Source: Nitratidesulfovibrio sp. SRB-5 (GTDB lineage: Bacteria > Desulfobacterota > Desulfovibrionia > Desulfovibrionales > Desulfovibrionaceae). Taken from it: DNA of 64,000 nt. The position numbers and the translations under genes were made by a program. Shown in pieces: positions 4,460-24,555 of the stretch; within the stretch, counting starts at the first letter, position 1, and each line of letters starts with the position of its first letter. A model generated the notes under the pieces. The model had not been told where the DNA came from. It did not search any database and worked only from the letters and a program-made list of their open reading frames with translations. Location: assembly GCF_019931275.1 (NCBI RefSeq), contig NZ_JAIOTY010000001.1, positions 496,001 to 560,000 of the forward strand, given 5' to 3'.

Positions 4460-4470
4460 GGGGGTGCGCG

Positions 4471-5301
4471 TTACAACGTTTCCGGCCCGTCGTCCAGAGC
4501 GCCCGGTTTGCCGGGCCGGGGCGGCCTGCGGCGGCCACGGGGGGCGGTGCGGGGATCAGGGATGGGCTGGGGTTTGGGCAGGGGGGCCGCGCCGGTGGAA
4601 GCCGGGGCGGCGGGGGCATCGACATCATTGGGTGCGGCGTCAGCCGGAGCCGCAAAGGGCAGCCCGGCCTCGAAGGCGTCCAGCGGGGTCAGGCCCCAGG
4701 CCAGGCGCAGGCGCCCGAACAGCAGGCGGACGTCCTTTTCCGTCAGGTGCACGGCGGCCAGCACGCCGGACAGGGTACGCCCTTCGCGTACGACCACACA
4801 GTGGTCCGGGGTGAACAACGTGATGCGCTCGCCGCGCATCCACAGCGGAAACAGGCGACAGTACCAGGGCCGCACCTCGCGCGGAAGGCGGCAGCCCTCC
4901 GTACCCAGAAAGGCGCAGTCGCCCCGGCGGTCCACCGCCAGGCGCAGGTGTTCGCCGTGCAGGGGGAACAGGGCCTCCACGGCGGCTTCCTCGCCGGGGA
5001 ACAGGCGCTTCATGCCGTCCACGAAGGGGCGGGTGTTGCGTTCGGTGGCAAAGCCCCCCACGTGGTCGCACCATTCCACGATGCGCTCCCATTCCGAGCG
5101 GGACAGGGGGAAGCAGAATTCCTCCTCGCCGGGGGTGGTGGAGCAGCAGGTGGTCCCCTGCGCAGCGCAACGGGCGCAGGCCGAAGGATCGGGCGCGGGG
5201 GCGTCCCGTCTGGCATGGGGCCGGGCATGGGGCCTTGCGCAGGGGGTGCCCGTCGTGCCCGTTGTATCGGGCGTTTTGGGGGTGCGGGGTGCGCGTGCCA
5301 T
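4471..5301 (-). CDS. YkgJ-family cysteine-cluster protein
   Basis: A 276-residue protein of the YkgJ / Fe-S oxidoreductase-like zinc- or iron-chelating family (UPF0153). The signature cysteines are CARCAAQGTTCC near residue 41, a further FCFPLS, and a C-terminal-side set GCRLPREVRPWYCRLFPLW. These are the CxxCxxxxxxCC and GCxL...RPxxCRxFP motifs of the family. The last 80 residues are Pro/Ala-rich and probably disordered. The start ATG at 5301 lies two bases beyond the TGA (5303) of the upstream glycosyltransferase, so translation is likely coupled. Biological role is not established for the family; metal binding is inferred from the cysteines. Confidence 0.85.
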   Translation of the reverse strand: MARAPRTPKTPDTTGTTGTPCARPHARPHARRDAPAPDPSACARCAAQGTTCCSTTPGEEEFCFPLSRSEWERIVEWCDHVGGFATERNTRPFVDGMKRLFPGEEAAVEALFPLHGEHLRLAVDRRGDCAFLGTEGCRLPREVRPWYCRLFPLWMRGERITLFTPDHCVVVREGRTLSGVLAAVHLTEKDVRLLFGRLRLAWGLTPLDAFEAGLPFAAPADAAPNDVDAPAAPASTGAAPLPKPQPIPDPRTAPRGRRRPPRPGKPGALDDGPETL

Positions 5302-5302
5302 G

Positions 5303-7093
5303 TCAGTAGGCTCCGGAGCCGGAGTTGGGCCAATGGCCGTTGAAGCCGCGCAGCACCACCACCCAGAACGTGCGCCCCGGCTTGCCCCGGTGGGTGGACT
5401 GGTAGTTGGTGACCTGCACGGATTCGAACATTTCTTCGAGCTGCGGTGGCATCCTTGGCCCGTCGCGGCGCACCAGCACGGCGTCCCAGCCTACCTTGTC
5501 GGTGGGGGCGGGCCAGATGTCGTACTGGCTCATGCGGCGGCCGAAGTCGGCGCAGTAGGTCACCGGCTGGCCGGGTGCGTAGAACGCCAGCGAGGCGGTC
5601 ATGTCGTAGGCGTCGGAAAAGAAGAACACCCGGTCCGGGTCGGGCAGTTGCCGACGCACCTCGTCGAGGTGCTCGCCAAGGTCGGCCCAACCCTTTAGGC
5701 GGGTTGCGGGGTTGTACTGCGGCGGCAGGGGCAGCGCATCCTGCGCGTGCACCAGGCCGAAGGTCAGCACGCCCAGCACCGCCCACACGGGCACCAGCCT
5801 GCGCCATACGGTGGTGTGCGTCCCCGCCGCGAGCAGGACGGCGTCGCGGCGGCGGGCGGCGACGAGGTCGGCCAGGCAGCACGCGGCCAGCATGATGCCC
5901 GCCACGTAGCTCATGGCGGGCCAGTTGGGGTAGATGCGGGTATGCAGGCTCCACAGGGTCATGCCGCCCCACAGGGGCCAGAACCCGGCGGCCAACAGGA
6001 TGTCGCGGCGCAGTCGGTCCGGATCGCAACCTGCGCCGATGGGGGCAGTGGGCACGGAAGGGGTGCCCGGTACGGAAGCCATGCCGCCGCCCCCGGCTCC
6101 GTTCCTGCCGCCGGGCGCGTGCCCGGAGCAGGCGTTGCGCAGGGCGCGCCAGCCGCCCACCAGCATCAGGCCCAGCCACCACGGGGTGATGATGCCCGCC
6201 TGCGCGCCCAGATGTTCGGGCAGGCGGTCCGGGGTCAGAAAGGTCTTGGCGGCCTTGCCCGCCACCCCGGCCAGGGTGGCCACGTGGCGGAAGCTGACCC
6301 AGTCGTTGGAAATGTTCCAGGCCAGGATGGGCAGCATGCCCACGGCGGAACCGGCCAGCATCACCGCCAGCACCCGCCAGGCCACGCCGCGCGCCAGCAG
6401 GTCGTGGCGCGCAAGGCCCCACAGCCACAGCACGGCCACGCCCGCCATGGCCAGCATCATGTACTTGGCCAGCACGCCCAGGGCCATGCACGCGAACAGC
6501 AGCACGTAGGGGGTGCGGCCACGCGGCTCGCGCGAGATCCAGTGCAGGCAGAACAGCGCGCCCGCCCAGCACAGCAGCAGGGGGCTGTCGGTGGTCATCA
6601 GCACGCCCGATGCAATGAACAGCGGGGTGGTGTTGGCAACGAACAGGGTCAACACGCCCAGCGCGGGTGCGCGGAACAGCCGGGCAACACCGAGATACAG
6701 CAGTGTCTGGGCCAGCGCGGCATTGACCACCGCGCCCATGCGCACGCCGGTTTCCGTGTCGCCCAGCAGGGCCGTCCACCCGTGGATGAGCCAGGCGATG
6801 AGCGGCCCCTTGGAATAGTAGGAAAGCTGCAACCTGCGCGACCAGTCCCAGTACTGCGATTCGTCCTGCACCAGATCCAGCTGGCCGGAGATCACGAACC
6901 ACAGCCGCACCAGGGTGGTGACGGCAATGATTGCGCCCGCGCACAGGGCGGGGTTGCGTTCCCAGATGGGGGCCGCGGGCAGGCCCAATGGCGCGGGAGC
7001 GGCGCCGGAGCGCGCGCCGTGGCTGCCGTGGCTGCCGGTGTCGGCGGCATTGGCGGAAGGGCGGAATTCGGGCCGGTGTATGGATGCGGACAT
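5303..7093 (-). CDS. Glycosyltransferase family 39 (ArnT/PMT-like) membrane protein
   Basis: A 596-residue polytopic membrane protein. The N-terminal DESQYWDWSRR motif (acidic pair after the first membrane helix) and YYSKGPLIAWLIHGW are typical of ArnT/PMT_2 glycosyltransferases, which transfer a sugar from a polyprenyl-phosphate donor to an acceptor on the periplasmic side. At least ten hydrophobic helices follow, and the C-terminus (last about 150 residues) is a soluble periplasmic domain. I start it at ATG 7093 (MSASIHRPEF) because upstream frame is Pro/Arg-rich shadow sequence; the ribosome site there is weak. The acceptor could be lipid A, a protein or another glycolipid and cannot be read from the sequence. 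It heads a minus-strand run with the YkgJ protein and PBP1A, suggesting an envelope role. Confidence 0.85.
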   Translation of the reverse strand: MSASIHRPEFRPSANAADTGSHGSHGARSGAAPAPLGLPAAPIWERNPALCAGAIIAVTTLVRLWFVISGQLDLVQDESQYWDWSRRLQLSYYSKGPLIAWLIHGWTALLGDTETGVRMGAVVNAALAQTLLYLGVARLFRAPALGVLTLFVANTTPLFIASGVLMTTDSPLLLCWAGALFCLHWISREPRGRTPYVLLFACMALGVLAKYMMLAMAGVAVLWLWGLARHDLLARGVAWRVLAVMLAGSAVGMLPILAWNISNDWVSFRHVATLAGVAGKAAKTFLTPDRLPEHLGAQAGIITPWWLGLMLVGGWRALRNACSGHAPGGRNGAGGGGMASVPGTPSVPTAPIGAGCDPDRLRRDILLAAGFWPLWGGMTLWSLHTRIYPNWPAMSYVAGIMLAACCLADLVAARRRDAVLLAAGTHTTVWRRLVPVWAVLGVLTFGLVHAQDALPLPPQYNPATRLKGWADLGEHLDEVRRQLPDPDRVFFFSDAYDMTASLAFYAPGQPVTYCADFGRRMSQYDIWPAPTDKVGWDAVLVRRDGPRMPPQLEEMFESVQVTNYQSTHRGKPGRTFWVVVLRGFNGHWPNSGSGAY

Positions 7094-7432
7094 GCGCGCG
7101 AAAATGACCTGTGGGGATTGATGATGATGGAAGCCGGCAGGGCGGGCAGGGCCGCGTGCCGGGAAGCGTGGCTGGCTTGAATCGTCGTGGTCCGAGCCGC
7201 GCTGGCGTGAACCGTTGCGGCACGAATGGCTCCGGATCGGTGCCGCTGGGAATGTAGCCTCTCGGAGGGGGGGTGTCCAGAAGGGGGGATGCGGCGGTGC
7301 CAGCCGATGCCGGGGAGAGGCCGGGAGAGACCGGGATGGACACGCCCGTGGGACCGGCATGCGGACGGGCGGAGCGTACCCCTGCGGCGGCGGAACGTTC
7401 GTTCGGATATCCGCCGCCGCAAGGGGGGTGCG
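7094..7432. other. Intergenic region, GC-rich hairpin
   Basis: No gene is seen. A strong inverted repeat at 7379-7426 (arms CCCCTGCGGCGGCGGA and its complement with one bulged A) lies immediately after the stop of the aldehyde-dehydrogenase-like gene on the minus strand. It lacks a U tract but may act as a terminator or 3-prime stabilising hairpin. Confidence 0.5.
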
Positions 7433-8932
7433 TTACTTGTACAACCGCTTGAGCACCTTCAGCTTCAGGTCGGAGCCGGGTGCGAAGCGCAGGGGGATGT
7501 CGAAGAAGTTGGACCCCACGGCTGTCGCGCGCGGTGCGGAGAAGGTGGCCAGCCCGGCGGGGCCCGCCATGGCGCCGTGCCCGGTTTCGCCAACGCCCCC
7601 CTGCGGCAGGCGCGGGTTGGCGAGGTGGGTGGCCGCGTCGTTGATCAGCACTGCCCCGGCGCGGGTGGTTTCCATCAGCCGTTCGCCGCGCGCGTGGGCG
7701 GTGGTGAAGGCGTACAGCGCGGTGAGCGCGGGCAACCCGGCCAGAAAGGCCGTGGCCTCGTCCAGCCGGGTGTAGGGGCGCACCACCAGCACGGGGCCGA
7801 AGCCTTCCTCGCGCAGCACGGGGCTGTCATCGGGCACGTCGGTCAGCAGGGTGGGCGGCACGTACAGGGAGGCCCTGTCAGGTTGATTGGCCGCATCGCC
7901 GGGGCCGAAGGGCAGGGCGCGCCCGATGGCCAGCCGTTCCGCCTGGCGCGCGAACCCGGCGGCGGAGACCATGCGGCCAAAGTCCGCGCTGGTGCGCGGC
8001 TGCGGGCCGAAGGCGCGTTCCAGTTCGGTGCGCAACGCGTCCAGCACGCGGTCCAGCACGGTGCGCTGCACCAGCAGCACGTCGGGCGCGGCGCGCAGTT
8101 GCCCGGCATGCAGGAACTTGGCCCACACGATGCGCCGGGCGGCCATGGCCATGTCCGCATCGCCGTGCACCAGCGCGGCGGACGGTCCGCCGGTGATGGC
8201 GGCATACGGGGTCAGCGTGGGGGCGGCCAGCGCGGCGATGGTCCGCGCTCCGCGCGCGTCGCCGTCGTACCACACGAAATCGGGCGCGGTGGCCAGCAGG
8301 GCCTCGTCCGTTTCCGCGCCGCCGCCGACCACGGCCACATGCTCCGGCTCGAAATACTGGCGCACCATCCGGGCCACCATTTCCGCCGTGGCCGGTGCTT
8401 CCGCCGAGGGGCGCAGCACCACGGCATTGCCCGCGCCCATGGCGTCGGCCAGGGGCACCAGCAGGCTGCGGAACGGGTCGGCCCAGTGGGCGTAGGCCGC
8501 GACCCGGCCCAGCGGCTGACGGCGCACGTAGCTGCGCGCCTTGAACTGCCCCAGCGACGGCAGCACCCGCCGCCCGCCGCAGAAGCCGGGCACGGCCTTG
8601 ATCAGCCAGTCGATCTCGTGCAGCACGGGCACCACCTCGCGCACCAGAAAAGGGTGCTCCGGGCGGCCATAGTCGGCGCGGATGGCATCGGCCAGACGGT
8701 CGCGGTAGCCCTGCACGCCTTCGCGCAGGCGACGCAGGGCGTCCACCCGCGCGCCGGAGGGCAGCACCGCGCCCGAGGCGATGAACGCCTTCTGGCGGGC
8801 GGCCAGCGCGGCCATGTCCTCACCGATGACCGAGGGGCCGGTGGCGGAAGAGCCGGTGGGCGCGGTGGCGGTGACTGCGTCGGCGTGCGGTACGGAGGAG
8901 GGGGCAGCGGACGGGGCGGCGGATTGGGTCAT
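7433..8932 (-). CDS. Aldehyde dehydrogenase-fold protein lacking catalytic residues (predicted pseudoenzyme)
   Basis: A 499-residue member of the ALDH superfamily, closest in layout to class 3 / coniferyl-aldehyde type enzymes. The fold is intact: NAD-domain stretch DAMGAGNAVVLRPSA, the EEGFGPVLVV motif, GAVLINDAATH, and a family-typical C-terminus. All three catalytic positions are replaced. The Asn of WNYPF is Ala (W150-A151-D-P-F). The general-base Glu of ELGGK is Ile (I246-T-G-G-P). The nucleophile Cys of GQTCIAPD is Arg (G-Q-L-R280-A-A-P-D). The reading frame is otherwise clean, so this is not simple decay. An AAGGAG ribosome site precedes ATG 8932. Redox catalysis on aldehydes is therefore unlikely; a structural or regulatory role, or a different chemistry, is possible. 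Confidence 0.85.
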   Translation of the reverse strand: MTQSAAPSAAPSSVPHADAVTATAPTGSSATGPSVIGEDMAALAARQKAFIASGAVLPSGARVDALRRLREGVQGYRDRLADAIRADYGRPEHPFLVREVVPVLHEIDWLIKAVPGFCGGRRVLPSLGQFKARSYVRRQPLGRVAAYAHWADPFRSLLVPLADAMGAGNAVVLRPSAEAPATAEMVARMVRQYFEPEHVAVVGGGAETDEALLATAPDFVWYDGDARGARTIAALAAPTLTPYAAITGGPSAALVHGDADMAMAARRIVWAKFLHAGQLRAAPDVLLVQRTVLDRVLDALRTELERAFGPQPRTSADFGRMVSAAGFARQAERLAIGRALPFGPGDAANQPDRASLYVPPTLLTDVPDDSPVLREEGFGPVLVVRPYTRLDEATAFLAGLPALTALYAFTTAHARGERLMETTRAGAVLINDAATHLANPRLPQGGVGETGHGAMAGPAGLATFSAPRATAVGSNFFDIPLRFAPGSDLKLKVLKRLYK

Positions 8933-14570: not shown

Positions 14571-14700
14571 GTGAGCGGTGATGTGGCGCGGTCACCCTTC
14601 GTCACCCCATTCCCCACCCTGTCACGTTGACGCCACCCCGCCGAGTTCCTATGACTGGCGGGTGCGTACCCCCAGCAGCAAACCGGCATTCCGGCCAGAC

Positions 14701-16755
14701 ATGAACGGCCCCGGCCCCGCCACCAGCAGCACCCTGCCGGGCGCGGCCCGTGTGCTTGTCCTTGCCATTGCGGTGTGCCTTGCCAGCATCGCCGCCCCCG
14801 TCGGTCCGGCTTGCGCGGTCACCCCTGCGGTCACCCCCACGGGCTTTTCTGTCCGCGCCGTCACCTCTGCCACCACGGGTTCCCCGGTCAACGCAACGCC
14901 CCCGGTTCCAGTTGCTTCCCCGGCTGGCGGTGCCGCTCCGGCTTCTGCCTTTTCTCCGGCTCCGGCTGTCCCGCAGGCTGCCCCGCAGGTTCCCCGTGCC
15001 CACGCCGTCCAGCCGCTGGAAGCCGCCCCCGCCCCACAGCCGCAGGACGCTCCTCACGTGCAGCGTGTCCTTATCATCGGGGGCGACAGGAATTATCCGC
15101 CCTACGAATACCTGGACGACAAGGGCCAGCCCACCGGGTTCAACGTGGATCTTTCGCGCGCGGTGGGAGAGGCCATGGGCGTGCCCGTGCGCTTCGTGCT
15201 CATGGACTGGTCACGCCTGCACACCGCCCTTGCCGACGGCACGGTGGATGCCCTGCAACGCACTCCGTATTCCAACCTGTGGCTGCGCGAGGCGGAATTG
15301 ACCCCGCCGCACACCACCATCAACCACGCCATCTTCGCCCGCAAGGGCACGCCCGCCGTCTTGTCGCTGGAGGAACTGGCCGGAAAAAAGGTCATCGTCC
15401 ACCCCGGCGGCAGCATCAACGACATCCTCGACGGCATGGGCTACGAGAAGGACCTGATCTTCTCCAAGACCCCCGTGGGCGGGCTGCGCCGCCTTGCCGG
15501 GGGCGAGGCCGACTACGCGGTGGTGGCCATGCTGCCCGGCATGTTCACGTTACAGCACGACGGCATCGACAACGTGCGCGTGGTGGCGAAAAGCGTCACC
15601 AGCCAGCCCTACGGCTTTGCCGTGCGCCACGGCGACGAGGCCACCCTGGCCCTGCTGGGCGAGGGGCTGGCGCTGGTCAAGCAGTCCGGCCGCTATCAGG
15701 AACTGCGCCGCAAGTGGTTCGGCGTCATGGACACGGAGGGCATCTCCGCGCAGGTGGTGGCGCGCTACGCCGCCGTGGTGCTGGGGCCGCTGCTGCTTCT
15801 GCTGTGCGCGGCGGCGCTGTGGACCCGCTCGCTCAAGCGGCAGGTGGACCAGCGCACCCGCTCGCTGTCCGACGCCCTTTCGCAACTGCGCGAGAACCAG
15901 CAGCAACTGGTGCAGGCCGACAAGATGGCCGCCCTGGGGGTGCTGGTTTCCGGCGTTGCGCACGAGATCAACAACCCCAACGGGCTGATCCTGGTCAACG
16001 TGCCCATTCTCAAGAAGCTGAACGCAGAGGCCATGCGCGTGCTGGACGAGGTGTACAGCGAAAAGGGCGACTTTCCGCTGGGCGGCAGCAGCTATTCGCG
16101 CATCCGCGACAAGCTGCCCCGCATCGTCGAGGTGGTGGAGGAAAGCGCCCAGCGCATCCGGCGCATCGTGGACGACCTGCGCGACTTCTCTCGCGTGGCC
16201 CCGGCCAGCGACCACCAGTCCTTCGACCTTGGCGAGGTGGCGCAAAAGGCCATCCGGCTGGTGGGCAGTTCCATTGCCAAGGCCACGTCGCGGTTCGACA
16301 CGCACTTCGCCCCCGGCCTGCCGCCGGTATGGGGCAACCCCTCGCGCATGGAGCAGGTGGTGGTGAACGTGCTGCTGAACGCCTGCCAGGCCCTGCCCGC
16401 GCCGGAGGCTGGTGGACCGGGCGAACCGCCCGAACCGCCCGAACCGCACGACAGGCACGACAGGCACGACAGGCTCGCCAGAGGCATCACCGTCTCCACC
16501 GTCGCCGCGCCGGACGGCAGGTCGGTGGTGCTCACCGTGGCGGACGAAGGCGTGGGCATCGCGCCGCAGGACATCCCCCGCCTGACCGACCCCTTCTACA
16601 CCACCAAGCGCGCCAGCGGCGGCACGGGGCTGGGGCTTTCCGTCTCGGCGGGCATCGTGCAGGAGCACGGCGGCAGTCTGGACTTTACCTCCGAACCGGG
16701 CCGGGGCACCACCGTGCGCCTTGTGCTGCCCGTGGCAAGCGACGGCGCGTCATGA
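14701..16755 (+). CDS. Sensor histidine kinase with periplasmic solute-binding (SBP_bac_3) domain
   Basis: A 684-residue membrane kinase. After an N-terminal signal/membrane segment (AARVLVLAIAVCLASIAAPV) and a Pro/Ala-rich linker, residues about 122-340 form a type 3 extracellular solute-binding domain (NYPPYEYLDDKGQPTGFNVDL at its start). A membrane helix at about 355-377 leads to the kinase core with H-box GVAHEINNPNG (His421). The N-box is NVLLNACQALP, and the G-boxes are DEGVGI and GGTGLGLS. A 9-bp tandem repeat (16423-16476) encodes EPPEPPEPHDRHDRHD between N and G1 boxes. The start is uncertain: ATG 14701 has no strong ribosome site. The stop overlaps the ATG of the sigma-54 regulator (ATGA at 16752), so the two are a translationally coupled pair. 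The ligand is probably a small amino- or organic acid (inference from the sensor family). Confidence 0.88.
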   Translation: MNGPGPATSSTLPGAARVLVLAIAVCLASIAAPVGPACAVTPAVTPTGFSVRAVTSATTGSPVNATPPVPVASPAGGAAPASAFSPAPAVPQAAPQVPRAHAVQPLEAAPAPQPQDAPHVQRVLIIGGDRNYPPYEYLDDKGQPTGFNVDLSRAVGEAMGVPVRFVLMDWSRLHTALADGTVDALQRTPYSNLWLREAELTPPHTTINHAIFARKGTPAVLSLEELAGKKVIVHPGGSINDILDGMGYEKDLIFSKTPVGGLRRLAGGEADYAVVAMLPGMFTLQHDGIDNVRVVAKSVTSQPYGFAVRHGDEATLALLGEGLALVKQSGRYQELRRKWFGVMDTEGISAQVVARYAAVVLGPLLLLLCAAALWTRSLKRQVDQRTRSLSDALSQLRENQQQLVQADKMAALGVLVSGVAHEINNPNGLILVNVPILKKLNAEAMRVLDEVYSEKGDFPLGGSSYSRIRDKLPRIVEVVEESAQRIRRIVDDLRDFSRVAPASDHQSFDLGEVAQKAIRLVGSSIAKATSRFDTHFAPGLPPVWGNPSRMEQVVVNVLLNACQALPAPEAGGPGEPPEPPEPHDRHDRHDRLARGITVSTVAAPDGRSVVLTVADEGVGIAPQDIPRLTDPFYTTKRASGGTGLGLSVSAGIVQEHGGSLDFTSEPGRGTTVRLVLPVASDGAS

Positions 16756-18200
16756 GCGGATACTGCCCGAACACCCCGGAAAGCCTCGCGGCCCCCGGCA
16801 TCCTGCTGGTGGACGACGAGGCGGACTGGCTGGCCTCCATGACCCTGCTGCTGGAATTTTCCGCCGGGTTCTCCAACGTGCGCGCCTGCCAGGACAGCAG
16901 GCAGGTCATGGACATCCTGGATGCGGGGGGCATCGGCCTCGTGCTGCTGGACCTGACCATGCCGCACGTTTCCGGCACCGATCTGCTGGCCGCCATTGCC
17001 GAACGCCACCCAGACGTGTGTTGCATCGTGCTTTCGGGCATGAACCAGCTGGCCACCGCCGTGGAATGCATGCGCCTTGGGGCGTACGACTACTACGTCA
17101 AGACCGACGACGAATCGCGCATCGTGGGCGGCATTGCGCGGGCCATGCACATGCTGGAACTGCGCGAAGAAAATCGCCAGGTGGCCAGCCGCCTGGTGTC
17201 GGGCCAGTTGCGCCAGCCAGAGGCCTTTGCCGCCATCCGTACCCGCAGCGCGGCCATGCACGCCATCTTTGCCTACATCGAGGCCGTGGCCAGAAGCCCC
17301 CGGCCCCTGCTGGTCACCGGTGAATCGGGCGTGGGCAAGGAAAGCCTGGTGCGCGCCGCCCACGAACTGAGCGGCAGGCGCGGCCCGCTGGTGGCCCTGA
17401 ACGTGGCCGGGCTGGATGACGCGGTGTTCGCCGACACGCTGTTCGGCCACGTGCGCGGCGCCTTCACCGGGGCGGACGTTCCGCGCCGGGGGCTGGTGGA
17501 AGAGGCGGCGGAGGGCACGCTGTTCCTCGACGAGATCGGCGACCTGTCCATCGCCTCGCAGATCAAGCTGCTGCGCCTGCTGCAAGAGGGCGAATACTAT
17601 CCGCTGGGCAGCGACCAGCCGCGCAGGCTGTGCGCCCGCGTCATCGCCGCTACCCACGCGGACCTTGCCGCCAGCGAGCGGGAAGGGCGCTTCCGGCGCG
17701 ACCTGTTCTTTCGCCTGCGCACCCACCACGTGGCCGTGCCGCCCCTGCGCGAACGGCCCGAAGACATCGCCCCGCTGCTGGACCACTTTCTGGGCGAGGC
17801 GGCGGCGGCCATGGGCAAGCGCAAGCCCACCCCGCCGCCGGAACTGGCCGCGCTGCTGGCCAGCTATCCCTTCCCCGGCAACGTGCGCGAACTGGCGGCC
17901 ATGGTCTACGACGCGGTCAGCCTGCACGCCGGGCGCATGCTGTCCATGGATGCCTTCAAGCGGCACATCGGCACGCCGGAAGCGGCAACCGCCGTGGCCG
18001 CCGCCGTGGCGGAGGGGGACAACCCCTTTGCCGGGCTGCCCACCCTGCCCAGCTTCGCCCAGGCGGAGCGGCTGCTGCTGGACGAGGCCATGGCCCGTTC
18101 CGGCGGGCGGCAGACCCTGGCCGCGCGGCTGCTGGGGGTCACCCAGTCCGCCCTGTCCAAGCGCCTGAAGGCACAACGCCGCGACGACGACGCCAGCTGA
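16752..18200 (+). CDS. Sigma-54-dependent response regulator (NtrC family)
   Basis: A 482-residue regulator. The receiver domain has ILLVDDEADW and phosphoacceptor Asp67 in VLLDLTMP. The AAA+ domain has Walker A GESGVGKES (about residue 192), the sigma-54 contact loop GAFTGAD (about 237), Walker B LFLDEIGDL and the arginine-finger region RRDLFFRL. The C-terminus is a Fis-type helix-turn-helix (LAARLLGVTQSALSKRLKA). It overlaps the kinase gene by four bases and is its cognate partner. A -24/-12 promoter lies 249 bases after its stop, ahead of the exported binding protein and redox genes, which are the obvious target. Confidence 0.93.
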   Translation: MSGYCPNTPESLAAPGILLVDDEADWLASMTLLLEFSAGFSNVRACQDSRQVMDILDAGGIGLVLLDLTMPHVSGTDLLAAIAERHPDVCCIVLSGMNQLATAVECMRLGAYDYYVKTDDESRIVGGIARAMHMLELREENRQVASRLVSGQLRQPEAFAAIRTRSAAMHAIFAYIEAVARSPRPLLVTGESGVGKESLVRAAHELSGRRGPLVALNVAGLDDAVFADTLFGHVRGAFTGADVPRRGLVEEAAEGTLFLDEIGDLSIASQIKLLRLLQEGEYYPLGSDQPRRLCARVIAATHADLAASEREGRFRRDLFFRLRTHHVAVPPLRERPEDIAPLLDHFLGEAAAAMGKRKPTPPPELAALLASYPFPGNVRELAAMVYDAVSLHAGRMLSMDAFKRHIGTPEAATAVAAAVAEGDNPFAGLPTLPSFAQAERLLLDEAMARSGGRQTLAARLLGVTQSALSKRLKAQRRDDDAS

Positions 18201-18272
18201 CGCATTCCCCCGCCATCCTTCCGCTTCATGAGCCCCGCCGGGATTCCCCGCCGCCGTGCCCCGGCGATGGGG

Positions 18273-18288
18273 TATGCCGAACGGCATA
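18273..18288. promoter_or_regulatory. Candidate upstream activator sequence (palindrome)
   Basis: TATGCCGAACGGCATA is a 7-bp perfect dyad around AA, about 175 bp upstream of the sigma-54 promoter. That is a usual distance for an NtrC-type enhancer. A matching half-site (CGGCATACC) occurs at 18365. Binding by the adjacent regulator is inferred. Confidence 0.5.
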
Positions 18289-18448
18289 TCATGCCATCGG
18301 GCAAGCCGCGCCGATACGGCGTGCACGCTTGTCTTTGCCGTTTCCAGCGGGATTCCATTCCCTGCGGCATACCCCTTCGCGCCTCGCCCTCTCCTGACTT
18401 GTTCAAATAATCACATTGATTCTGCAATGTTGCCGGAACGCTGCGGGC

Positions 18449-18464
18449 TGGCATCGTACCTGCT
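18449..18464 (+). promoter_or_regulatory. Sigma-54 (-24/-12) promoter
   Basis: TGGCATCGTACCTGCT matches the TGGCAC-N5-TTGCA consensus with GG and GC at the invariant spacing. It lies 127 bases before the ATG of the PstS-like gene and directly downstream of a sigma-54 activator gene. Confidence 0.7.
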
Positions 18465-18590
18465 TTTGCGTTTGCGGCCACGGGTGGGCCGGGCGGGCCA
18501 GATGGGCCAGACGGGCTGGGCCGCCACGAAAGCCCCCGGGGCGCGCGCGGCATGGGGCCGCGCGCCGCAACGAACGAAGCAGGAGTACGT

Positions 18591-19427
18591 ATGCAACAGA
18601 TTGGCGCAGTCAGATCCGCCGTGCGGCGGGCATTGTTGGGCGCTTTCGCGCTGGCGGCATGGGTTGCCGTTTGCGGCGCACCCGCCATGGCGGCGGATAC
18701 CGCACCCCTTACCTACGAAGGGGCCAGCACCATCGGCGGGGTGATCCTGCCGGAGGCGACCAAACTGTTCACGGCCAAATCGGGCGTGCAGTTCGGGGCC
18801 GTTGGCACCGCGGGTGCGGGTGCGGGCTTCAAGGCCGTGGTGGCGGGCAAGGTGGCGTTCGGCGGCCTGGCCAGCGAGCCCACCGCGCAGGAAAAGGCCC
18901 AACTCACCGACATCGTGGTCATCGGCTACGACGTCATGGGCGTGTTCGTGCACGGCGCGAACCCCATCAAGGGCCTGAGCATGGCCCAGCTGAAGGACAT
19001 CTTTTCCGGCAAGGCCACCAACTGGAAGGACGTGGGCGGGGCCGACGCGCCCATCACCGTGTACAGCGAAAGGCTGGACGGCGGCCGGGCCACGGTGAAG
19101 GCCTTCAAGTCCATGGTGCTGGGCGACACCCCCTACGGCCCGGTGAAGGAACTGGACGACGCCACCGACTGCGTGGCCGACGTGGTCAAGGATGCCGGGG
19201 GCATTACCGCCGCCTCCATGTCCTTTGCCCTGCCCGGCGCGGTGGCCGTGCCCGTGAACGGCGCCACGCCCGACGCCGCCGGGGTGCGCTCCGGGGCCTA
19301 CCCGCTCAAGCGCCCCCTGTCGCTCATCGCCGTCAATCCGTCCGCCAACGTCAAGGCGTTCTTCGAATTCATGCTCACGCCCCCGGCGCAGGCCGTGGTG
19401 GGCAAGTCGTTCGTTCCCGCGAAGTAG
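18591..19427 (+). CDS. PstS-like periplasmic substrate-binding protein
   Basis: A 278-residue exported protein. Twin arginines in the signal region (SAVRRALLGAFALAAWVAV) precede a likely Sec cleavage after APAMA. The mature part has the PstS-fold signatures: GASTIGG near the N-terminus, a Gly-rich TAGAGAGFKAVVAGKVAFGG loop, LKDIFSGKATNWKDVGG, and a C-terminal SANVKAFFEFMLTPPAQ. Family members bind phosphate or related oxyanions, but no pstCAB permease or phoU lies nearby. It is instead the first gene after the sigma-54 promoter and upstream of a dehydrogenase and cytochrome. A role as substrate-capture or signalling protein for that system is inferred. The start ATG 18591 has AGGAG five bases upstream. 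Length is slightly below the usual PstS. Confidence 0.8.
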   Translation: MQQIGAVRSAVRRALLGAFALAAWVAVCGAPAMAADTAPLTYEGASTIGGVILPEATKLFTAKSGVQFGAVGTAGAGAGFKAVVAGKVAFGGLASEPTAQEKAQLTDIVVIGYDVMGVFVHGANPIKGLSMAQLKDIFSGKATNWKDVGGADAPITVYSERLDGGRATVKAFKSMVLGDTPYGPVKELDDATDCVADVVKDAGGITAASMSFALPGAVAVPVNGATPDAAGVRSGAYPLKRPLSLIAVNPSANVKAFFEFMLTPPAQAVVGKSFVPAK

Positions 19428-19618
19428 GGGCCAAATCGTCTTTTTGCTCGTTGGCGTCGTCAAACTTCGCCTGCCATTTCGGTTGAATACGATAAGAGTA
19501 TGCGCCCTCATGGCAGGCTTGTTTTCCTCGCCAACAAACAAAAATCCTGATTTGGCCTCACTCGCATGACCGACGACACATCTCCCGTGCAACCACAACA
19601 CAAGGAAGGCGTTTTCCG

Positions 19619-20836
19619 ATGACCAAGGACATGAACGATACCGACGCGACCCGCCGCAACTTCATCAAGGCGGGCATGGTGGCTGGCGCCGCCGCGCTGC
19701 TTACCCCCGTGCTGGCCAAGACCGCGCAGGCAGCCGACGCCGCCGCGCCCGCTGCTGCTGCCGCACCCGCTGCTGCCGCCCCCGCCGCGCCCGGCGCCAA
19801 GCTGAAGATGGGCGACGTGCTGCGCGTGGCGCGCGAAAAGCTGTATCCCATCTGCCGGGTGTGTCCGGAATGCGACGGCGTGGCCTGCGCGGGCGAGGTG
19901 CCCGGCATGGGCGGCATCGGCTCGGGCCAGGCGTTCAAGAACAACTACAATGCGCTGGCCCGCATCGAACTGGTCATGCGCACCTTCCACGACGTGAAGA
20001 AGCCCGACCTCACCACCACCCTGTTCGGGCAGAAGCTGTCCATGCCCGTGACCTCCGCCGTCACCGGCGGCGTCACCTACAACATGGGCAACAAGATGAC
20101 CGAAGAGGAGTACATCAACTCCATTCTCGGCGGCTGCCTTGACGCGGGCACCCTGGGCTGGGTGGCCGACGGCATCGGCGACAAGATGGAAGTGTTCGAG
20201 CGTCGCATTTCGGTGCTCAAGACCCAGTTCGGCGGCAAGGGCATCGTGACCATCAAGCCCAAGACCAACGAAGAGATCATCAAGCGCATCCGCATGGTTG
20301 AAGAGGCGGGCGGCGTGGCCGTGGCCATCGACATCGACTCGGCTGGCCGCGCCGCGCGCGCCGTGCCCGGCCAGACCGTGGAGCCCAAGACCCCGAAGCA
20401 GCTGGCCGAACTGGTGAAGTCCACCAGCCTGCCCTTCATCATCAAGGGCATCATGACGGTGGAAGAAGCGAAGATCGCCGTGGAAGTGGGCGCCAAGGGC
20501 ATCTGCGTGTCCAACCACGGCGGCCGCGTGCTGGACTACACCCCGGCAACCGCCACGGTGCTGCCCGCCATTGCCGCCGCCGTGAAGGGCAAGACCACCA
20601 TCCTGGTGGACGGCGCGGTGCGGCGCGGGCAGGACGTGCTGAAGTTCCTGGCCCTGGGGGCCGACGCCTGCCTGTGCGGCCGCCCGCTGGTGCGCGGTGC
20701 CCACGGCGCGGGCCGCGACGGCGTGGCACTGATCATGAACACCATCAAGGACGAACTGACCGTGGCCATGACCCTGACCGGCGTGGCCGACGTGCGCAAG
20801 GCCACCTCCAACATCATCGCGAAGGTGCAGGCATGA
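19619..20836 (+). CDS. Tat-exported FMN-dependent alpha-hydroxy-acid dehydrogenase with four-cysteine motif
   Basis: A 405-residue flavoenzyme. The N-terminus carries a Tat signal (TRRNFIKAGMVAGAAALL, cleavage near AKTAQA) and an Ala/Pro linker. Residues 79-90 hold a CRVCPECDGVAC motif (Cys79, 82, 85, 90), then PGMGG. The TIM-barrel FMN domain has the active-site residues of the lactate/glycolate oxidase family: Lys276 (FIIKGIM), His300 and Arg303 in SNHGGR, and DGAVRRGQDV (Asp331, Arg335-336) for FMN phosphate. It should oxidise a 2-hydroxy acid to the 2-oxo acid in the periplasm. The four cysteines resemble an Fe-S ligand set and might pass electrons out (inference). AAGGAAGG precedes ATG 19619. 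Its TGA overlaps the cytochrome ATG (20833), so both are made together. Relatives known to me with the same cysteine motif are cytoplasmic. Confidence 0.9.
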   Translation: MTKDMNDTDATRRNFIKAGMVAGAAALLTPVLAKTAQAADAAAPAAAAAPAAAAPAAPGAKLKMGDVLRVAREKLYPICRVCPECDGVACAGEVPGMGGIGSGQAFKNNYNALARIELVMRTFHDVKKPDLTTTLFGQKLSMPVTSAVTGGVTYNMGNKMTEEEYINSILGGCLDAGTLGWVADGIGDKMEVFERRISVLKTQFGGKGIVTIKPKTNEEIIKRIRMVEEAGGVAVAIDIDSAGRAARAVPGQTVEPKTPKQLAELVKSTSLPFIIKGIMTVEEAKIAVEVGAKGICVSNHGGRVLDYTPATATVLPAIAAAVKGKTTILVDGAVRRGQDVLKFLALGADACLCGRPLVRGAHGAGRDGVALIMNTIKDELTVAMTLTGVADVRKATSNIIAKVQA

Positions 20837-22773
20837 AACGAGCCTGGAGTCTCCTGCTCCTGGCTCTGCTGACCGCCTGGCCGGGGCTTGCCCTGGCGAC
20901 CAGCGAAGGGAAGGCCCTGCGCTACGGCGGCGGAGGCCAGGGGACCGTCATGTTCGACGGCAGGCTTCACGCGTCCAAGGGCTTCCGGTGCGACGACTGC
21001 CACTCGAAGCTCTTCGACACCAAGAAGACGGCCCGTATCACCATGGCCGACCACTTCACGGACAAGGCCTGCTTCAAATGCCACAACAACACCAACAAGT
21101 CTGATGGCACGGGCGGAACGGGGGGGACGGGGTATCCGCCCACGGCCTCGCGCGACTGCGCCACATGCCATCGCAAGGTGGCCTCCAACGCGGTCACCTC
21201 CACCGATGCCATGGGCACGGTCATCGCCACGCCCTTTGTCGGCGACGAGGCGCAAAAGGCCCTGCTGCTGTCCGGCAAGCGCGGGGTGACGGCCCAGAGC
21301 ACGGCCTGCCTGTCGTGCCACGGCGCGGACACGCCGCCCCACCCGGTGACCGAACGCGGCAAGACGCTGAACCTGCACATCGACCGGGCAGGCTACATGC
21401 ACGGCACGCACGCCAACCTGCCCTGCGCCACCTGTCACATCGGGCAGAAGGGCGAGGACAGCTTCCTGCTGCAACCCCACGCGGTGGCCAGGCCGGACAA
21501 TGCAACCTGCCTGTCCTGCCACAACGTGGGCCTGGCGCACCAGGTGAAGGCCTTCGGGCAGAGCACCCACGCCCGGAAGCTGGGCGACAAGGTGTCCTGC
21601 GACAGTTGCCACAATCCGCACGCCCAGCCCAAGAACCCGGCCAAGGTGGCCTACGCGCCGCTGACGGCCATGTACAACGCCCAGTGCCTGACCTGCCACG
21701 GCGATGCGGGCAGGCTGCGCGAACTGTCGGGCCGTTCCGTGCCCGACGCGAAGTCCGCGCACTCGTTTCTGGCCAACTGGGACGCCCACAGCCGCTCGGT
21801 GATGTGCGTGGAATGCCACACGCCCAACGACGCCGACGGCTCCATGGACAAGCCCGACTCGCACCTCATCGGCGAGAAGAAGACCGCCCTGCGCAACTGC
21901 GCCACCTGCCACACCTCGGGCGAATCGCTCATCGTGGTGCGGGCCAGCGTGCACGTGGAAGGCGCGGGCCCGGTGACCTCCGGCTACTTCCCGCCCAAGC
22001 GGGTGATGCCCGAACTGGACCGTCCGGCCGCCACCGCCCTTGCCGCCGTGGTAGCCTTCGTGGTGCTGCACGGGCTGGGCCGCATGGTGACGGGCAGGAA
22101 GGAACGCGGTCCGCATGGTCCCCATGGTCTGTTGACCTCGGAGTTCGTGTACCCCGGCTTCGTGCGGGTAACCCACTGGATCAACGCCGCGCTGTTCGTG
22201 GTGCTGGCCTTCACCGGCCTTTCGGTGCGCTTCACGGAAAGCCCGTGGGCGCTGGGGCTGGAGGCGGCGACCCGCATCCACAACGCGGGCGGCGTGCTGC
22301 TGGGCCTGAACTTCCTGGCGTACGTGGCCAGGGCGTTCCTGACCGGCGACATCCGCCAGTACCTGCCGGGGCCGGGCGAGGGCCTGCGCGCCCTGTTCAT
22401 CCAGGCGCGCCACTACTGCTTCGGCATCTTCCGGGGCGAGGCCCATCCCTTCCCGGTGACGGCGCAGCGGCGGTTCAACCCGTTGCAGCGCGTGGCCTAT
22501 CTGGCGGTGTTCCTGCTGGGCATGCCGGTGCTCATCGCCTCCGGCCTGCTGCTGCTCCTGCCGGAATCGGTTTCGGCATCCATCGGCCCCCGCCAGTTCC
22601 TGGTGGCGGCGCACTTCGTCATCGTCATCTGCTTCGCGCTGTTCTGCGTGGGTCACCTGTATCTTGCCACCACCGGGGCGACGCCGCTCAGTCTGGTTAA
22701 GGGCATGATCAACGGGCGGCACGAGCACGAGCCGGGCGGGCACCGTCCCCACGGGAAGGACGGCAACGCGTAA
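20833..22773 (+). CDS. Decaheme cytochrome c fused to b-type membrane cytochrome
   Basis: A 646-residue electron-transfer protein. A signal peptide (MKRAWSLLLLALLTAWPGLALA) is followed by a periplasmic part with ten CxxCH heme sites from Cys53 to about residue 361: CDDCH, CFKCH, CATCH, CLSCH, CATCH, CLSCH, CDSCH, CLTCH, CVECH, CATCH. A membrane helix (about 397-418) leads into a cytochrome b561/Ni-hydrogenase-type b domain of four helices, with His in VTHWINAALFVV, RIHNAGG and VAAHFVIVICFALFCVGH as probable heme b ligands. It should carry electrons between a periplasmic donor and the quinone pool. The four-base overlap with the FMN dehydrogenase makes that enzyme the likely partner. The stem-loop at 22842-22873 follows. 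Confidence 0.93.
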   Translation: MKRAWSLLLLALLTAWPGLALATSEGKALRYGGGGQGTVMFDGRLHASKGFRCDDCHSKLFDTKKTARITMADHFTDKACFKCHNNTNKSDGTGGTGGTGYPPTASRDCATCHRKVASNAVTSTDAMGTVIATPFVGDEAQKALLLSGKRGVTAQSTACLSCHGADTPPHPVTERGKTLNLHIDRAGYMHGTHANLPCATCHIGQKGEDSFLLQPHAVARPDNATCLSCHNVGLAHQVKAFGQSTHARKLGDKVSCDSCHNPHAQPKNPAKVAYAPLTAMYNAQCLTCHGDAGRLRELSGRSVPDAKSAHSFLANWDAHSRSVMCVECHTPNDADGSMDKPDSHLIGEKKTALRNCATCHTSGESLIVVRASVHVEGAGPVTSGYFPPKRVMPELDRPAATALAAVVAFVVLHGLGRMVTGRKERGPHGPHGLLTSEFVYPGFVRVTHWINAALFVVLAFTGLSVRFTESPWALGLEAATRIHNAGGVLLGLNFLAYVARAFLTGDIRQYLPGPGEGLRALFIQARHYCFGIFRGEAHPFPVTAQRRFNPLQRVAYLAVFLLGMPVLIASGLLLLLPESVSASIGPRQFLVAAHFVIVICFALFCVGHLYLATTGATPLSLVKGMINGRHEHEPGGHRPHGKDGNA

Positions 22774-23118: not shown

Positions 23119-24555
23119 ATGTTCAGCCGGTTGTCCCTGATGCTCTTCCACGTCCTCCCGCTCGCAGTGCTGTTGGCAGGGGCATTTCCCGGCATCTGCC
23201 GGGCGGATTCCGGCCCCGCCGACGTCCGGTTCGCCCCGGCGGAACAACGCTTCATCCGCGAATCCGGCCCGGTCACCCTGTGCGTGGACCCGGACTGGCC
23301 GCCCTTCGAAACGGTGGAGGTGCGCAACGGCCAGCCGCGCCACGCGGGCATTGCCGCCGACATCATCGCGCTGGTGGCGCAGCGCACCGGCCTGTCCTTC
23401 GAACTGGTGCCCACGGCCACGTGGGATGAAAGCATCGCCGCCGCGCGTGAGGGCCGCTGCCAGGTGCTCAGCTTCCTGAACCAGACGCCGCAGCGCGAGG
23501 CGTGGCTGGGCTTCACAGATCCCCTGCTGACCGACCCCAACGTGTTCATCACCCGCGTGGAGCACCCGGCCATCATCGACCCGGCGGCGCTGGAGGGCGC
23601 GACCATCGTGTTTCCCCGGGGCACGGCCATGGAAGAACTGGTCCGCAAGGACTACCCCAATCTGAAGGTGCTGGTGGCGGAGTCGGAGGCCGAGGCCATC
23701 CGCATGGTGGAGGAACGCAAGGCTGACATGACCATGCGTTCGCTCATCGTGGCGGCATACACCATTCGCCAGCAGGGGCTGTTCAACCTGAAGATCGCGG
23801 GCAAGCTGCCGGAATACGAAAACAAGCTGCGCATGGGCGTGGTGCGGCACGATCCCCTGCTGCGCACCGAGTTGCGCACCGTGCTGAACCGGGGCATCCG
23901 TTCGCTGACGGACGACGAGCGCCAGCAGATCGTCAACCGGCACGTGCCCATCACCGCCCAGACGTCGGCGGATTACTGGCTGGTGGCCCGCGTGGCCGGA
24001 TTTTTCGCGCTGCTGGCCGGGGTGGTGCTGTGGTACAACCGCAGGCTCAAGCGCATGAATGCGGTGCTGGAGCGCCTGGCCCGCACCGATCCGCTCACCG
24101 ACCTGCCCAACCGCAGCCGCCTGAACGAACTGTTCCGGCGCGAGGTGGAACGGGCCCAGCGTTACCGGCGCCCCTTTTCCATCGTCATTCTGGACATCGA
24201 CCACTTCAAGCGCGTCAACGACGAGCTTGGCCATCTGGCGGGCGACAGGACATTGCAGGTCTTTGCCGGGGTGGTGCGGGACAGCGTGCGCGGGGCGGAT
24301 ACCGTGGGCCGCTGGGGCGGCGAGGAGTTCCTGGTGCTTTGCCCGGAAACCACGGCGGAAGAGGCCGTGCAACTGGCGGAGCGGTTGCGGGGCGCGTTGC
24401 GGGCCACGCAGTTCGAGGGGGGGCGCATCCATACTCTCAGCGCCGGGGTGGCGGCCTTCCGCGAAGGCGACAGCGTGGACGCACTGCTGCACCGGGCAGA
24501 CACCGCCCTGTACCGCGCCAAGAACGGCGGGCGCGACCGGGTGGAGGCGGAGTAG
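23119..24555 (+). CDS. Diguanylate cyclase with periplasmic solute-binding sensor
   Basis: A 478-residue inner-membrane protein. The signal peptide (LSLMLFHVLPLAVLLAGAFPG) is followed by an SBP_bac_3 sensor (VTLCVDPDWPPFETVEVRNG to about residue 270). A membrane helix at about 289-307 leads to a GGDEF-type domain with DPLTDLPNRSRL, metal-binding DIDHFKRVND and the catalytic GGEEF (residues 400-404). The product-inhibition site RGAD (391-394) lies five residues before it, so feedback inhibition by c-di-GMP is expected. It makes c-di-GMP in the cytoplasm when the periplasmic sensor is engaged. The start ATG 23119 has AAGAGG upstream. Its sensor is of the same family as that of the histidine kinase at 14701, and the two flank the redox operon. 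Confidence 0.93.
   Translation: MFSRLSLMLFHVLPLAVLLAGAFPGICRADSGPADVRFAPAEQRFIRESGPVTLCVDPDWPPFETVEVRNGQPRHAGIAADIIALVAQRTGLSFELVPTATWDESIAAAREGRCQVLSFLNQTPQREAWLGFTDPLLTDPNVFITRVEHPAIIDPAALEGATIVFPRGTAMEELVRKDYPNLKVLVAESEAEAIRMVEERKADMTMRSLIVAAYTIRQQGLFNLKIAGKLPEYENKLRMGVVRHDPLLRTELRTVLNRGIRSLTDDERQQIVNRHVPITAQTSADYWLVARVAGFFALLAGVVLWYNRRLKRMNAVLERLARTDPLTDLPNRSRLNELFRREVERAQRYRRPFSIVILDIDHFKRVNDELGHLAGDRTLQVFAGVVRDSVRGADTVGRWGGEEFLVLCPETTAEEAVQLAERLRGALRATQFEGGRIHTLSAGVAAFREGDSVDALLHRADTALYRAKNGGRDRVEAE

Follow-up and report, generated by a model that had tools for sequence, protein, structure and literature searches.

Does a five-gene locus of Nitratidesulfovibrio sp. SRB-5 encode a respiratory enzyme that draws electrons from a 2-hydroxy acid outside the cytoplasm, and which of its parts belong together? 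The locus lies in a 64,000-nucleotide stretch of the genome, referred to here as the window (contig NZ_JAIOTY010000001.1, positions 496,001 to 560,000), and a first-pass annotation made from the sequence alone had read it as a sensor kinase, a sigma-54 regulator, a PstS-like binding protein, a flavin mononucleotide (FMN) dehydrogenase with a twin-arginine (Tat) motif and a ten-haem/b-type cytochrome, a layout that Pfam searches and a count of CxxCH motifs bore out. On balance, the comparative sequence evidence leads us to favour the view that these genes specify a sigma-54-controlled, periplasmic respiratory FMN 2-hydroxy-acid:cytochrome oxidoreductase that would feed the quinone pool, with the PstS-like protein as a partner and with a kinase that senses through its own domain.

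In this scheme, the FMN enzyme would be exported by the Tat route to the periplasm, where its substrate would be a small 2-hydroxy acid or a similar alcohol; electrons would pass from FMN to a dedicated triheme c7 domain, which we regard as the core step. The exit in the window's lineage would lead from c7 through seven further haems to a b-type cytochrome from the b561/formate-dehydrogenase-gamma superfamily, and from there probably to menaquinone. The PstS-like protein would be a partner of the enzyme–c7 unit and not a component of an ATP-binding cassette (ABC) transporter or of induction. The kinase would use its built-in binding domain to perceive a periplasmic ligand and would activate a single promoter that serves all three structural genes.

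The dehydrogenase and its triheme c7 neighbour

The dehydrogenase belongs to the FMN_dh family (PF01070, 223.1 bits against a cut-off of 24.9), and its N-terminus matches the TAT_signal model of Pfam slightly below the cut-off (2e-4, 21.6 of 22.7 bits). Named genomes were scanned with two peptide patterns derived from members of the window enzyme's clade, which gave 28 loci (designated by L numbers, genomes by G numbers), 16 of Tat type and 12 outside the clade that share the patterns. All 16 carry a twin-arginine motif of the form RR-x-F-[LI] before a hydrophobic stretch, compared with none of the other 12. In the same 16 loci, a triheme c7 match begins 0–500 bases downstream of the dehydrogenase gene, while no such match follows the gene in any of the 11 non-Tat loci with downstream sequence (550 bases in L083 and 941 in L087; L096, with 2 bases, was left uncounted). 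The N-terminus of the window cytochrome reaches 46.1 bits with the triheme c7 model TIGR04257 (cut-off 40), and the match recurs in all five scanned c7-bearing relatives (42.0 to 57.3 bits). Within flanks of about 1.5 kb (less for L008), 28 control loci outside the clade gave no match to a Tat motif, c7 or periplasmic binding protein (PBP); a frame with one CxxCH was found in six of them and a frame with more in none, and L061 and L062 had a weak regulator match. The proposal of the first-pass annotation that an exported FMN dehydrogenase is tied to a multihaem cytochrome gains from these non-Tat homologues, as neither the 11 scanned loci nor the 28 controls have a multihaem neighbour. Since the Tat motif and c7 occur in every clade locus and in no outside locus seen, the dehydrogenase together with c7 appears to be the conserved core.

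A tree of 57 sequences gathers the 19 rows of Tat type on a single branch (support 100/100, recovered in 200 of 200 bootstrap trees), and the members come from Thermodesulfobacteriota, Nitrospirota and Pseudomonadota, so that a module confined to one genus was rejected. Two clade members outside the 16-locus set (G377 and G290) have c7 as well. Three loci (L069, L074, and L076) lie on the same contigs as L034, L035, and L036 and are not extra evidence, and L077, L078, and L081 are closely related to one another, as are L070–L072. Some dehydrogenase homologue is present in 102 of 119 genomes drawn from the family, and a Tat-type one (at least 66% identity) in six, namely four of the six genomes of the window's genus together with G078 and G062. 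Among 395 genomes drawn from the phylum, six sequences pass an E value of 1e-112: the window's own, the Tat-type G377 and G290 (62–63%), and three of non-Tat type (55–57%). The window's genome also encodes a dehydrogenase paralogue, 47% identical, beside a GntR/FCD regulator. Homologues without Tat signal and cytochrome, which had been named beforehand as evidence that would speak against the module, were encountered only as a paralogous group that co-exists with the Tat-type enzyme in the same genome.

Kinase, regulator, PstS-like gene and cytochrome adjoin the dehydrogenase in all four Tat-type genomes of the genus, but this company is not constant across the 16 clade loci. Its description of a self-contained module was too strong in this respect: the kinase–regulator pair stands beside six of the 16 loci and the decahaem/b form occurs in six, whereas the link between dehydrogenase and multihaem protein, and the sigma-54 promoter, are supported. 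A decahaem–dehydrogenase pair was likewise rejected as the conserved unit, because of the restriction of the decahaem form to those six loci.

Control of the structural genes

Seven loci could be aligned upstream of the structural genes, four from genomes of the window's genus and L070–L072 (titled Solidesulfovibrio or Desulfovibrio sp. DV, with L072 from Solidesulfovibrio alcoholivorans DSM 5433). The number of sites of the TGGCATCGTACCTGCT type in the window does not exceed chance (2 matches against 2.68 expected), yet the place of this -24/-12 promoter is fixed in all seven, which confirms its earlier annotation and led us to reject a chance occurrence. Palindromes of the form TGCC-N4-GGCA, which the first-pass annotation did not mention, lie upstream of the promoter in each of the seven (one to four per locus), compared with a mean of at most 0.008 per region in single-base shuffles. 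The locus combines the elements of an NtrC-type two-component system, that is, a regulator with receiver, AAA and helix-turn-helix domains, a paired kinase and a -24/-12 promoter. A kinase and regulator of the window's type adjoin L069–L072, L076, and L079, and a sigma-54 regulator of another kind accompanies L074 and L075; the copy that was scanned (L035, the same as L074) contains a PrpR_N domain. A -24/-12-like site precedes the dehydrogenase in L073, L076, and L079, a weaker one in L074 and L075, and only a poor one in L080, L082, and L092. Judged from these comparisons, the sigma-54 circuit has good support only within the window's group.

The best start of the PstS-like gene is position 18591, where GGAG and GTATG are common to all seven aligned loci, and the start of the cytochrome gene overlaps the end of the dehydrogenase gene by ATGA. 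The kinase start is less certain, as a GTG at 14578 is still within the open frame; similarity from residue 1–2 onwards in G085 and G100 gives weak backing to 14701. Between the PstS-like and dehydrogenase genes lies a further feature absent from the first-pass annotation, a 125-bp imperfect palindrome with 46 genome matches listed, this place included, 17 of the others being at least 115 bases long; it is mostly gone from this site in G100, and its middle is gone in G085. It looks like an element of the miniature inverted-repeat transposable element (MITE) or repetitive extragenic palindromic (REP) type.

Substrate, binding protein and electron flow

The predicted fold of the dehydrogenase is nearest to spinach glycolate oxidase (1gox, template-modelling scores 0.66/0.75), with mandelate and hydroxyacid oxidases also among the nearest folds, and the catalytic Lys276, His300, and Arg303, aligned to a plant glycolate oxidase, are invariant across 25 family rows. 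GntR/FCD regulators, which are often sensors of organic acids, are encoded close to the enzyme in L082 and L094, just as one is beside the cytoplasmic paralogue of the window's genome. A 2-hydroxy acid is a plausible substrate class on these grounds. Nevertheless, an alignment of 11 family rows (the L070 row was empty and was left out) with three canonical hydroxy-acid oxidases from plasmids revealed that both canonical substrate tyrosines, which we take to be the substrate-holding Tyr24 and Tyr129 of glycolate oxidase, are missing in all 11. The second position is occupied by an invariant Lys213 and the first by Gly92, although the latter stands beside a gap and its placement is unsure; in addition, the loop after Asp240 is much shorter than in the three canonical enzymes. 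Four cysteines (79, 82, 85, and 90) before the barrel are invariant in both the Tat-type and the non-Tat group, and no cofactor, be it a cluster or zinc, is claimed for them because the model is weak there (predicted local distance difference test, pLDDT, 49–76). Eight NCBIfam models match the dehydrogenase and none attains its cut-off, the lactate enzymes included (PRK11197, 159.5 of 376 bits; LldD, 141.1 of 550; L-lactate oxidase, 111.9 of 645.5).

These features may be explained if the same architecture serves another substrate, so that the FMN enzyme, with a rebuilt pocket, would oxidise something different from a simple 2-hydroxy acid. The lost tyrosines, Lys213, the short loop and the invariant cysteines all agree with this, as does the relation of the PBP to the oxyanion-binding PstS with a changed SGT(R) signature, but the retained catalytic triad and the GntR/FCD regulators argue for a 2-hydroxy acid, and we consider this alternative unlikely. 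As a separate observation, the gene directly before the Tat dehydrogenase in L094 (3164–4228) encodes a radical SAM protein with an N-terminal SRRNFLK motif.

The AlphaFold model of the PstS-like protein (pLDDT 87) has PstS proteins as its nearest folds in the PDB, with 28% identity to 4q8r and 4gd5. It scores 117.1 bits with the PstS family model TIGR02136, under the cut-off of 206.6, for which reason an ordinary PstS was rejected, and its anion-binding signature SGT(R) is changed to GGRAT. A domain scan of the five genes found no ABC transporter gene among them. In eight of the 16 clade loci (L073, L076, L077, L078, L079, L081, L082, and L092), c7 is fused to a PstS-like domain in an uninterrupted frame, with the PstS-like part C-terminal, and Pfam recovered both domains in all three fusions scanned. 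Because it is fused to c7 in relatives, we surmise that the PstS-like protein works with the dehydrogenase, as a partner of the enzyme–c7 unit that most likely binds the substrate or the product. The first-pass annotation had made it the source of the inducing signal, which the comparison does not support: besides these fusions, it is absent from three of the 16 loci, and the kinase has an SBP_bac_3 domain of its own. More tentatively, and with the odds rather against it, the PstS-fold protein might capture the substrate (or product) and deliver it to the exported FMN dehydrogenase; this would amount to a binding-protein-dependent respiratory enzyme, fused to its triheme acceptor in two phyla and equipped with swappable exits, namely free c7, a DsrJOP-like complex or heptahaem/cytochrome b.

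A draw of 297 genomes of the phylum yielded four PBP relatives (38–49%), two of which, L128 and L130, have no clear neighbour. The other two bear on the idea that the PstS-like protein serves the kinase as an accessory sensor by presenting a ligand to it, the c7 fusion elsewhere being a secondary event, which is compatible with the proposed enzyme. In L127, L129, and L080, a PBP_like_2 gene has a kinase or chemotaxis-like genes for neighbours; nonetheless, seven of the 16 loci (L073, L077, L078, L080, L081, L082, and L092) have a PBP without such a kinase in the fetched DNA (the kinase of L080 is a different one, and L092 shows a weak match 8 kb off), and given also the eight fusions and the kinase's own sensing domain, a sensory role is unlikely. 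In L080, the further PBP_like_2 gene and a hybrid kinase (5680–8636) are divergent from the dehydrogenase gene. G062 has three PBPs: a c7–PBP fusion and a free PBP in one cluster (L036, 8719–9837 and 5453–6295) and a third (51%) on a different contig, at G062:C93:308-1027.

The membrane part of the window cytochrome is a b561-type domain, the histidines of which presumably bind two b haems. It matches the thiosulfate-reductase cytochrome b model PRK15006 with 154.5 bits, under the equivalog cut-off of 204, and a decahaem protein of DmsE type was rejected (TIGR03508, 39.1 of 192.2 bits). The fusion of c7, seven haems and cytochrome b, with ten CxxCH motifs each, characterizes L069–L072, L074, and L075; in the window's lineage it stands where other lineages have the c7–PBP fusion, and the PBP is a separate gene upstream. 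Free-standing c7 was found in L094, G377, and G290, and free c7 with a separate PBP gene in L080. Genes similar to DsrJ, DsrO, and DsrP follow the fusion gene in L073, L076, and L079; in L036, the copy of L076, DsrO scores above its NCBIfam threshold (258.4 bits, cut-off 200), while DsrJ and DsrP fall short of theirs. The G062 cluster encodes an NrfD-type membrane protein and a DsrO-like protein, and the fetched DNA of the Telmatospirillum-type L077, L078 (T. siberiense), and L081 and of the Propionivibrio L082 contains no match to the quinone modules searched. In L073, CCG, FlpD, and ferredoxin-domain genes, heterodisulfide-reductase-like, occupy 3360–8246 on the strand opposite to the dehydrogenase.

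We infer the quinone exit from the b561-type domain and from the NrfD- and DsrO-type partners in sister loci, and the direction of electron flow is suggested by the enzyme family. Heptahaem/cytochrome b relatives in G036, G028, and G057 (loci L043, L045, and L046) adjoin a small tetrahaem cytochrome at places where no FMN dehydrogenase was seen, which is another use of the same module. A reverse module, in which cytochrome b and the haems would carry quinol electrons to an FMN protein that acts as a terminal reductase (e.g. of a 2-oxo acid), could draw on these relatives and on the fact that multihaem c plus b modules can serve periplasmic reductases, but is highly unlikely, as the fold family is one of oxidases and dehydrogenases, the c7–PBP fusions of L077, L078, L081, and L082 have no match to the searched quinone modules in the fetched DNA, and the potentials of lactate and glycolate favour oxidation by menaquinone or c7.

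Besides the missing substrate tyrosines, several observations weigh against a hydroxy-acid:cytochrome oxidoreductase with a PstS-like partner and sigma-54 control. The Tat motif and c7 arise once on the tree, so that the 16 loci are not independent, and the weight of the linkage lies in its retention across phyla. A PBP is found in 13 of the 16 loci, with none in L074, L075, and L094, and G078 (the genome of L074), G377, and G290 have one distant PBP homologue each (27–29%). Among the PBP relatives without a dehydrogenase, the one in L127 is encoded next to a HAMP hybrid kinase and the one in L129 within a cluster that resembles chemotaxis genes, so that a sensory role of the PstS-like protein retains some probability. 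The TGCC-N4-GGCA palindromes are absent from the three more distant loci L073, L076, and L079, and the stretches, of differing length, that were searched ahead of the dehydrogenase gene in L077, L078, L081, and L094 contained no -24/-12 core.

Table 1. Predicted genes and sequence elements of the locus, with positions in the window.
Feature	Position	Strand	Evidence
Sensor histidine kinase, predicted periplasmic SBP_bac_3 domain	14701..16755	+	Pfam SBP_bac_3 2e-26, HATPase_c 1.6e-23, HisKA 9.4e-8
NtrC-type sigma-54 response regulator, overlapping the kinase stop	16755..18201	+	Pfam Sigma54_activat 7.9e-52, Response_reg 5.5e-22, HTH_8 (Fis-type helix-turn-helix) 1.8e-8
Palindrome pair TGCCGAACGGCA and TGCCATCGGGCA, candidate regulator-binding sites	18275..18303		TGCC-N4-GGCA form, at 18275 and 18292
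Sigma-54 (-24/-12) promoter TGGCATCGTACCTGCT	18449..18464	+	Position kept in 7/7 aligned loci
PstS-like periplasmic binding protein (PBP_like_2)	18591..19427	+	Pfam 2.1e-25
Dispersed palindromic element, 125 bp, between PstS-like and dehydrogenase genes	19431..19555		Genome matches, RNA fold z -6.0
Tat-type FMN-dependent 2-hydroxy-acid dehydrogenase-like protein, four invariant cysteines	19619..20836	+	Pfam FMN_dh 7e-66; twin-arginine motif TRRNFIK
Cytochrome: N-terminal triheme c7, seven further c haems, C-terminal b-type membrane domain	20833..22773	+	10 CxxCH; Ni_hydr_CYTB 1.4e-20

Judged by its translation, the next gene downstream (about 23119–24555) encodes an apparent periplasmic solute-binding domain with a GGDEF-type domain after it.

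Relation to known systems

No description of this gene set was found in the literature searched, although one may exist, as most subscription journals were outside its reach. For sulfate reducers, lactate and other hydroxy acids are main fuels, and an exported enzyme, if the proposal is true, would allow cells to draw electrons from a hydroxy acid without importing it. The lactate route of Desulfovibrio vulgaris is described as a permease followed by lactate dehydrogenases (PMC4481167). The c7–PBP fusions moreover lead to a testable claim, namely that a binding protein of the transport type can be a working component of a respiratory enzyme. Proteins of this kind are familiar as partners of transporters and sensors, and if the delivery idea above is right, they would here take part in respiratory catalysis.

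The window enzyme may be likened to flavocytochrome b2 (L-lactate:cytochrome c oxidoreductase), in which a flavin enzyme located outside the inner compartment passes electrons to a haem protein; the FMN_dh fold and the catalytic Lys/His/Arg are shared with b2 and with glycolate and mandelate oxidases. Unlike these, the window enzyme has a multihaem c7 as its putative acceptor, a Tat motif and an N-terminal four-cysteine motif, and lacks the canonical substrate tyrosines. The cytoplasmic cysteine-motif FMN dehydrogenases of Desulfovibrionaceae, among them the 47% identical paralogue, share the cysteine motif but have no Tat motif and no adjoining c7 or PBP, as observed in all 28 controls. DVU2784 'L-LdD' is, we presume, one of these cytoplasmic enzymes. 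This FMN-dependent dehydrogenase appears in PMC4481167 as a putative L-lactate dehydrogenase. Phosphate-binding PstS proteins share the fold of the window's PBP, which is set apart by its score below the family cut-off, its GGRAT signature and the fusion to c7 in relatives. As for the quinone complexes DsrMKJOP and Qrc, the three sister loci with DsrJ-, DsrO-, and DsrP-like genes resemble them, with only DsrO over its cut-off and DsrMK not included in the search, whereas the window has its fused cytochrome b in place of such a module. Finally, the flavinylated FMN-bind/FAD reductases also combine an exported flavoprotein with multihaem c, a likeness to the window system, whose flavoprotein is nonetheless of a different family and probably works in the oxidative direction.

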